From Cytophagales bacterium (lineage in GTDB: Bacteria; Bacteroidota; Bacteroidia; Cytophagales; Cyclobacteriaceae): DNA of 64,000 bases. This document shows, piece after piece, positions 43,276 to 44,859 of the stretch (within the stretch, counting starts at the first letter, position 1; every line of letters begins with the position of its first letter). The notes beneath the pieces are model-generated. The model had not been told where the DNA came from, searched no databases, and saw only the letters and a list, made by a program, of their open reading frames with translations. Location of the stretch: the NCBI GenBank assembly GCA_022360015.1, contig JAKSDQ010000052.1:62001-126000 (forward strand). The letters run 5' to 3'. A program made the translations under genes and the position numbers.

Positions 43276-44859
43276 ATGAGTTATGTACTGCAACAATTAC
43301 TGATAACCAGTGCGGAAAAGTATCCGGAAAAAGATGCTGTCATTTTTGGTGATGATAAGATTACCTATGCTGAACTGCACGACAAGACCAACAGATTGGC
43401 AAGTTTTATGACCCAAAATGGCGTCGACCGGGGCGACCGTGTCGGCATTTTTCTCAACAAATCCGTTGAGTCCATTATTTGCATATTTTCCATTTTAAAG
43501 GCCAATGCAGTATACGTGCCCCTCGACCCTGTTGCACCGGCTGCCAGAATCTCTTACATCATCGATAACTGCCAGATAAAATGTTTACTCACCTCCTCGG
43601 CAAAATCAAAGACACTCCCTGATATCCTTTCAAAAACAGCAGTAGAGACAATCATAGTTACAGACAACAGGCATGAGGTTGCAGAAGGTATTGATAAAAA
43701 GCCAATATTGTGGGAGGAGGTGCTGGCGGCCCGCTATGCAGGTGTACCTGAAATCAGAAATATTTCATCTGACCTTGCTTACATTCTTTACACTTCCGGT
43801 TCTACAGGTACCCCAAAGGGAGTAATGATTTCGCATTTGAACGCATTTACCTTTGTCAACTGGGTTGTAGACTACCTGAAGGTGGATGAAAATGACATTT
43901 TTTCCAACCACGCCCCCCTGCATTTCGACCTTTCCATATTGGACATTTTTTGTTGTATGAAAGTGGGAGGTACATTATGTCCTGTGCCGGAAACTTTGTC
44001 CATGTTTCCAATAAGGTTGTCAACATGGATACAGGATAACCGCATATCTGTCTGGTACTCTGTGCCTTCTATCTTATCAATGATGGTATTGCACGGACAA
44101 CCGGATCAAAAAGATTTTTCAAGTTTACGCATGATCATCTTTGCCGGTGAAGTATTTCCCGTTAAATATCTCCGTCAATTGATGACCCTAATACCGGGCA
44201 AACAATACATCAACCTGTATGGCCCTACTGAGACCAATGTAATCACCTATTACCGTGTTCCCCCGATTCCGCCCGATCAAACCAAACCAATTCCTATCGG
44301 AAAATGCTGTGAAAATATGGAGGTATTTGCCGTGACAAAAGAGGGAAAAATTGTCACGGAAGCAGGTGAAGAAGGGGAATTACTGGCCAGGGGCACCTGT
44401 GTGGCCCGGGGTTATTGGGGTGCTGAGGACCGGACCGGCAAAGTGTTTGTTCCCAATACCTTTCAGAAAAATTTTGATGAGAAAATATACAAAACCGGAG
44501 ACCTTGTCGCACTGAATGAAGATGGGGATTATGTTTACATTGGCCGTGTGGATCATATGATCAAAAGCCGCGGCTACAGGATAGAAATCGGGGAGATCGA
44601 AGCAGCACTTTACACGCATCCCTCGGTGAGTGAAGTTGCGGTAATCGCCATACCCGACGATTTGATCACCAACCGGATAAAGGCCGTGATTACCTTAAAA
44701 GCAGGTCATTTCCTGGAAGCAACTGATGTGCGCATGTATTGCTCCGAGAAAATTCCAAAGTATATGGTGCCGGAAATCGTGGAGTTCCGGCAGAGCTTAC
44801 CTAAAACCTCGACCGGCAAAGTTGATAAGCCGGCACTGATGAGGGATTCGGTGACATGA
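43276..44859 (+). CDS. Stand-alone adenylation-domain protein, predicted L-prolyl-AMP ligase
   Basis: A3 AYILYTSGSTGTPKGVMISH; A5 NLYGPTETN; A7 YKTGDLV; A8 GRVDHMIKSRGYRIEIGEIE; A10 STGKVDK. Pocket residues aligned by eye to GrsA-A: D235 L236 L239 Y278 I299 A301 L322 V330 I331 K517. Confidence 0.9.
   Translation: MSYVLQQLLITSAEKYPEKDAVIFGDDKITYAELHDKTNRLASFMTQNGVDRGDRVGIFLNKSVESIICIFSILKANAVYVPLDPVAPAARISYIIDNCQIKCLLTSSAKSKTLPDILSKTAVETIIVTDNRHEVAEGIDKKPILWEEVLAARYAGVPEIRNISSDLAYILYTSGSTGTPKGVMISHLNAFTFVNWVVDYLKVDENDIFSNHAPLHFDLSILDIFCCMKVGGTLCPVPETLSMFPIRLSTWIQDNRISVWYSVPSILSMMVLHGQPDQKDFSSLRMIIFAGEVFPVKYLRQLMTLIPGKQYINLYGPTETNVITYYRVPPIPPDQTKPIPIGKCCENMEVFAVTKEGKIVTEAGEEGELLARGTCVARGYWGAEDRTGKVFVPNTFQKNFDEKIYKTGDLVALNEDGDYVYIGRVDHMIKSRGYRIEIGEIEAALYTHPSVSEVAVIAIPDDLITNRIKAVITLKAGHFLEATDVRMYCSEKIPKYMVPEIVEFRQSLPKTSTGKVDKPALMRDSVT

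Follow-up and report, generated by a model that had tools for sequence, protein, structure and literature searches.

A stretch of 64,000 nucleotides from a Cytophagales bacterium (GenBank assembly GCA_022360015.1, contig JAKSDQ010000052.1, positions 62,001 to 126,000 of the forward strand; hereafter the window) carries an operon headed by genes for two flavoproteins of the acyl-CoA dehydrogenase (ACAD) fold, an acyl carrier protein (ACP), a FemAB-like transferase and a stand-alone ligase, followed on the same strand by polysaccharide genes. The ligase very probably activates L-proline, and the set to which it belongs is likely to be a cassette of the N-hydroxypyrrole type. With a proline ligase, a carrier and two oxidizing enzymes heading a polysaccharide cluster, the bacterium therefore probably places a rare proline-derived ring group, which may bind metal, on its slime. 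Small natural products are known to carry pyrrole and N-hydroxypyrrole acyl groups made from proline; here, the genes are built into a polysaccharide operon. Its first five genes, of which the ligase is the fifth, are:

39306–40541, + strand: ACAD1, ACAD-fold flavoprotein with Leu in place of the catalytic Glu; proposed ChmG-like prolyl-S-ACP N-oxygenase (alignment, tree)
40556–41716, + strand: ACAD2, prolyl-ACP dehydrogenase family, Glu of the WER motif kept; proposed ChmH-like aromatizing dehydrogenase (alignment, tree)
41862–42107, + strand: stand-alone acyl/peptidyl carrier protein (PF00550; DSLG phosphopantetheine site, residues 37–40)
42164–43204, + strand: FemAB1, FemAB/GNAT-fold candidate acyl transferase (PF13480, PF02388; TIGR03019 at 110 bits, below cut-off; FemX in PDB)
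43276–44859, + strand: predicted stand-alone L-proline:carrier-protein ligase (code DLLYIALVI-K, PltF alignment, tree, fold match)

A stand-alone ligase predicted to activate L-proline

The ligase open reading frame (ORF) encodes 527 amino acids comprising an AMP-binding and a C-terminal domain only (PF00501, PF13193). Alignment to its relatives, PltF and GrsA placed the pocket residues at D218, L219, L222, Y261, I288, A290, L314, V322, I323 and K515, corresponding in that order to GrsA positions 235, 236, 239, 278, 299, 301, 322, 330, 331 and 517. These columns are valid since the GrsA sequence of 1AMU read in them gives back the GrsA code, DAWTIAAIC. The pocket DLLYIALV-I-K, which an earlier note had read from the DNA sequence without database searches, was thus borne out. 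The code DLLYLALV given in that note for PltF/RedM/CloN4-type ligases was also correct, the solved PltF (6o6e) reading DLLYLALVC in the same columns and PigI (7thn) DLFYIAWVC. Its statement that only position 299 differs holds over the eight residues to position 330 but not beyond them, as position 331 differs too; the ligase departs from PltF by two conservative changes, I299 for Leu and I331 for Cys. Of these, I299 is also present in PigI and I331 is common in close relatives of the ligase. After the invariant Asp the residues LLYIALVI are identical at six of eight positions to the consensus of stand-alone L-proline adenylation domains, L(L/F)YLALVC, whilst the consensus of modular domains is VQ(Y/F)IAHVV (PMC3874040); the note had described the proline codes of conventional nonribosomal peptide synthetases (NRPSs) as different (DVQ-type). 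Among 17 AMP-binding domains read in the genome the pattern D-L-L-Y-x-A-L-V was unique to the window ligase, and the modular proline code DVQSIAHVV was found in one NRPS domain elsewhere. The stand-alone architecture, with a separate carrier protein at 41862, is likewise that of the PltF type.

An AlphaFold model of the ligase (mean pLDDT 85.5) had as its three best PDB matches PltF chains 7thq_A, 7thq_B and 6o6e_B (TM 0.86–0.92), with GrsA and DltA ranking behind. This structural comparison, named beforehand as a possible refutation, did not shift the pocket. PltF was also the best PDB sequence match among stand-alone enzymes (354.6 bits), the structure matched being named PltF in the literature (PMC11253843). 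In a tree of the core region the window ligase fell with PltF and PigI (SH-aLRT 86), outside DltA and the exosortase A ligases, each of which formed its own group (SH-aLRT 99 for both), and apart from modular NRPS domains. In the alignment to PltF of Pseudomonas protegens (pyoluteorin; with RedM, CloN4 and PigI) nine pocket residues are visible, of which seven are identical; also shared are the fold (TM 0.88), a dedicated small carrier protein and a neighbour of the prolyl-ACP dehydrogenase type. Unlike PltF, the window ligase has Ile at positions 299 and 331 and lies in an exopolysaccharide operon with no polyketide synthase or NRPS genes beside it. Taken together the code, the closest fold and the tree position indicate L-proline as the predicted substrate.

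Across 80 metagenome loci, PltF-like ligases are repeatedly accompanied by an ACP and a PltE-like ACAD; of the 13 loci in which both flanks span 3 kb or more, 11 have the ACAD within 6 kb of the ligase. A PltE-like dehydrogenase adjoined the ligase in 16 of 19 loci with a proline-type code versus 3 of 36 with other codes (Fisher p 2.5e-8), a comparison of relatives with enough flanking sequence in which the rule was chosen with the data already in view and the loci are related to one another. Further neighbours of this trio are FAD halogenases, NRPS genes and polysaccharide genes, the last in loci L017 and L093.

Two flavoproteins and a probable N-hydroxypyrrole cassette

In AnaB and Bmp3 the Glu of the WER motif serves as catalytic base, and WER is common to nearly all PltE-type ACADs adjoining the related ligases. 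ACAD2 keeps this Glu (TGWERAVLI), as is characteristic of prolyl-ACP dehydrogenases, and its best PDB match is the prolyl-ACP dehydrogenase 4irn (240 bits). Scores against the curated NCBIfam models RedW (NF045652, 288 against a cut-off of 650) and PigA (NF053553, 302 against 500) were below threshold, and ACAD2 was for this reason filed as neither. In ACAD1 the sequence REPHWLVGGY aligns with the WER of AnaB and has Leu at the Glu position; its PDB matches include KijD3 (3m9v, 111 bits), behind short-chain acyl-CoA dehydrogenase (149 bits).

A comparable pair of enzymes acts in chalkophomycin biosynthesis, where ChmG, with Met at the position of the Glu and a structure like that of KijD3, N-oxygenates the prolyl-S-ChmI made by ChmJ, and ChmH, which keeps Glu, forms the N-hydroxypyrrole after ChmG (PMC10849742). 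The window set shares with ChmG, ChmH, ChmI and ChmJ, and with HrmK-N of hormaomycin, an ACAD without Glu, an ACAD with Glu, an ACP and a proline ligase. Gene order in the window is ACAD1-ACAD2-ACP-FemAB1-ligase, and the published set is named chmGHIJ. Unlike the Chm set, the window set has no NRPS and is followed by polysaccharide genes, and its ACAD1 has Leu rather than Met, so that ACAD1 was classed as ChmG-like and not as ChmG. Genes for N-hydroxypyrrole formation have been reported from 97 organisms; their clusters fall into four classes, located near genes for NRPSs, siderophore transporters or non-assembly-line enzymes, and the word "polysaccharide" is absent from the main text of that report (PMC10849742).

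Relatives of ACAD1 were present in 20 of 401 Streptomyces genomes. Most of the 18 that were compared lie in a ligase-ACP-ACAD-ACAD set, often accompanied by a flavin reductase and an alpha/beta hydrolase, and these sets match the published description of ChmF-J. On a plasmid of Streptomyces sp. NBC_01369, for example, an alpha/beta hydrolase, adenylase, ACP, two ACADs and a flavin reductase are encoded consecutively, the second ACAD being 39% identical to ACAD1. The residue at the Glu position of these 18 Streptomyces relatives was Met (REPHWM) in 17 and Leu in one (L226), and five ligases of these sets read DLFYAALVCK. In two Streptomyces loci the Pfam-scanned neighbours included no ChmN/SznF-type genes, and consequently neither locus was assigned to chalkophomycin. 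In the ACAD tree ACAD1 grouped with the REPHWM proteins of Streptomyces two-ACAD cassettes (100/100) and ACAD2 with the Glu-bearing ACADs of the same cassettes (100/100). Constraining ACAD2 to the PltE type was rejected (approximately unbiased test, p-AU 0.003), as was constraining ACAD1 to generic ACADs (p-AU 1e-5). An early tree built without Streptomyces sequences had placed ACAD2, on a long stem, next to the PltE type, a position overturned once the Streptomyces cassettes were added.

The ACAD1 family is narrow: out of 5.8 billion proteins, 251 belonged to it at E 1e-60. Its members are named only "acyl-CoA dehydrogenase" or "AidB-like" in databases, and the present reading offers a function for them. 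Six actinomycete genomes gave no match to ACAD1 at E 1e-35. When protein match lists were compared, with contigs of equal size counted as one contig as a proxy, ACAD1 and ACAD2 shared 33 contigs, ligase and ACAD2 19, ligase and ACAD1 14 (against a chance expectation of about 0.08) and all three 10; a BMA10 contig of 128508 bases was among those shared. Metagenome locus L091 holds all four genes (identities of 74% for ACAD1, 70% for ACAD2, 69% for the ACP and 62% for the ligase), preceded by SGNH and FemAB genes, and thereby confirms recurrence of the set in sequence. A 3.9 kb contig (L092) encodes ACAD1 followed by ACP and ligase without ACAD2, which may sit past the contig end. A search for further copies with context in genomes of the same order, class and phylum returned only G552, whose short locus has a set with a single ACAD. 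The earlier note's description of the pocket as pyrrole-type proline thus holds as regards the substrate but does not fully describe the product, the ACAD pair pointing to N-hydroxypyrrole over plain pyrrole.

Polysaccharide genes, acyl transfer and alternative products

Genes across 39306–58962 are separated by 1–231 bases, all on the same strand. Downstream of the ligase these are:

44873–45931, + strand: DUF354 protein, glycosyltransferase/epimerase-like (PF04007)
45955–47043, + strand: protein without Pfam or NCBIfam match
47045–47959, + strand: AAC(3)-fold N-acyltransferase, alternative candidate for acyl transfer to an amino sugar (PF02522, 111 bits; AAC(3) enzymes and FrbF in PDB)
47982–48929, + strand: polysaccharide deacetylase-like protein (PF01522, 22.5 bits, just below cut-off; 53% to the ligase-adjacent L093 protein)
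49161–50204, + strand: SGNH-family protein, conserved near the cassette (PF13472 weak; 52% to the L091 protein)
50242–51276, + strand: FemAB2, 35% identical to FemAB1
51504–53990, + strand: Wzc-like polysaccharide co-polymerase/tyrosine kinase
54050–55432, + strand: Wzx-like flippase
57724–58962, + strand: Wzy-like polymerase

The Wzc-, Wzx- and Wzy-like proteins, and sulfotransferase- and glycosyltransferase-like proteins encoded between the Wzx- and Wzy-like genes, were named from ORF and sequence reading alone. Beyond them a glycosyltransferase-like protein at 59025–60232 is split into two overlapping ORFs (59025–59552 and 59522–60232), possibly by a frameshift or an assembly error.

In the pathway we propose, the ligase would adenylate L-proline and attach it to the phosphopantetheine arm of the ACP at 41862. 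ACAD1 would N-oxygenate the carrier-bound prolyl group, as ChmG does, and ACAD2 would then aromatize it to N-hydroxypyrrole-2-carboxyl-S-ACP, as ChmH does in chalkophomycin biosynthesis. Through FemAB1, FemAB2 or the AAC(3)-like enzyme, the acyl group would pass to an amine in the polysaccharide repeat; the likeliest acceptor would be an amine uncovered by the operon's own deacetylase. The model for this last step is the Caulobacter holdfast, for which it has been suggested that HfsK, a FemAB-like protein, may add acyl groups to amines uncovered by the deacetylase HfsH (PMC5362036). The two systems share a FemAB-like acyltransferase and a polysaccharide deacetylase in one exopolysaccharide pathway, but for HfsK and HfsH no ligase, carrier protein or dehydrogenases dedicated to supplying the acyl group were seen described (PMC5362036). 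The genome encodes two phosphopantetheinyl transferases. We put the chances of the complete chain, attachment to the exopolysaccharide included, at about even. More speculative is the possibility that exopolysaccharide amino sugars carry N-hydroxypyrrole-2-carboxamide, a motif known to bind metal, made on a carrier protein by a recruited natural-product cassette, giving a chelating or redox-active slime. The proposal suggests a surface-polymer decoration with a concrete product to seek, and connects biofilm material with a rare group that binds metal. The kinds of ligase and cassette are already known, but the pairing of a proline-to-N-hydroxypyrrole set with a polysaccharide operon was not described in the literature searched, nor was anything relevant found there on pyrrole- or proline-substituted polysaccharides, most subscription journals lying outside the reach of that search.

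Several observations weigh against this proposal. ACAD2 is joined to the Streptomyces proteins by long branches, and ACAD1 is only about 40% identical to its Streptomyces relatives, many of which adjoin ligases with other codes (DLFMAGLACK). The residue at the lost-Glu position is Leu in the window ACAD1, L091 and L092, not the Met of ChmG; a ChmF-like hydrolase was not found among the operon genes; and the likeness to ChmG and ChmH was drawn from the published description and the Streptomyces relatives, not from direct sequence comparison. Outside this genome the two-ACAD context is known in part (L091, 9.7 kb). The enzyme activities (proline loading, ACAD1 and ACAD2 chemistry, acyl transfer and its acceptor) are predictions from family membership, pocket residues, whether the catalytic Glu is kept or lost, the order of the genes and recurrence of the set, and transfer to polysaccharide is suggested by gene order and co-location alone.

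The products of all characterized relatives are small molecules, and in chalkophomycin the N-hydroxypyrrole serves as a ligand for metal (PMC10849742). It is conceivable, though unlikely, that the cassette makes a small diffusible molecule such as a metal-binding glycoside or amide and merely neighbours the polysaccharide genes. A second ligase-dehydrogenase-ACP set of the same genome, on contig C110, does adjoin NRPS genes. No second AMP-binding domain, and hence no NRPS, was found on the window contig, however; the tight co-directional spacing with polysaccharide genes, and the occurrence of PltE-type trios in the polysaccharide loci L093 and L017, also argue against a diffusible product.

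It is rather improbable that the acyl group is a plain pyrrole, with ACAD2 alone making pyrrole-2-carboxyl-ACP (as PltE, RedW and PigA do), ACAD1 in a minor role and the pyrrole acyl group passed to the polysaccharide. Consistent with such a route, ACAD2 belongs with AnaB in the prolyl-ACP dehydrogenase group and keeps its Glu, and most ligase relatives have a single ACAD of this kind. Yet the narrow ACAD1 family occurs with ACAD2 on 33 contigs, the tree places ACAD2 with the two-ACAD type and rejects the PltE type, and ChmH, whose description fits ACAD2, was inactive on prolyl-ACP alone (PMC10849742).

Transfer of unoxidized proline is very unlikely. A precedent exists in CcbC, a stand-alone adenylation domain activating L-proline for celesticetin (PMC3874040), FemAB enzymes transfer aminoacyl groups, and D-alanylation by DltABCD similarly employs a stand-alone amino-acid ligase and a small carrier protein to supply an acyl group for a surface polymer; against this, two flavoproteins of proline-oxidizing families lie directly upstream and recur with the ligase. 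The window system further differs from DltABCD in ligase code and clade and in lacking a membrane-bound O-acyltransferase (MBOAT): none was matched in the window, ruling out a Dlt-like MBOAT route there, and the sole Pfam MBOAT match of the genome is on contig C257. Finally, membership of the ligase in the DltA, exosortase A-associated or fatty-acyl groups with a coincidental code, for which speak TIGR03098 as second-best NCBIfam match and nearby FemAB and deacetylase genes of XrtA-like families, is made highly improbable by family scores below cut-off (TIGR03098, exosortase A-associated ligase, 355 bits against 592.35; TIGR01734, DltA, 298 against 559.85), by pocket codes (DLMTMCTVAK for DltA, DYSATSMRSK for exosortase A ligases), by the separate clades and by PltF as best fold match.

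Observations on ligase sets in other loci

The exosortase A-associated ligases in L171–L175 (TIGR03098) have unusual codes, for example DYSATSMRSK and DASTATMRAK. In Streptomyces, two-ACAD cassettes in L187, L213 and L216–L222 contain ligases reading DLFMAGLACK or DLFIAGLACK rather than a proline code, the L187 cassette adjoining aspartate decarboxylase and dioxygenase genes; such cassettes perhaps N-oxygenate another carrier-bound amino acid. The second set of the Cytophagales genome (C110:74798–77520; L010, L182) has the ligase code DILYLGVQCK, and in its ACAD the catalytic Glu is replaced by Asp (YDR). A Flavobacteriaceae locus (L015) resembles the C110 set in both respects, and the substrate of the C110 ligase may be other than proline.

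Loci L110 (5381–7942), L154 (6555–9107), L141 (6532–9075), L151 (6526–9105) and about 10 further metagenome loci encode a protein of approximately 850 amino acids in which a membrane N-terminus is fused to an SGNH domain. The gene directly precedes those for an ACP, a PltF-like ligase with the exact PltF code DLLYLALVCK and, usually, a PltE-like ACAD. A model of the N-terminal part (mean pLDDT only 68) had DltB as its best PDB match (E 5.6e-6, TM about 0.6), with no Pfam MBOAT match, and these loci have a Dlt-like layout that may serve to pyrrolylate a surface polymer. CmlS-like FAD halogenases adjoin the PltF-like trio in about 21 of the 80 metagenome loci (L095, L096, L116, L133, L147, L156, L162 and L163 among them). 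Acyl_transf_3-like acyltransferases occur together with a halogenase in L155, L156 and L162, and without a halogenase match in L130 and L132. Acylation of glycans or glycosides with halogenated pyrrole is a possible role for the halogenase-bearing loci.
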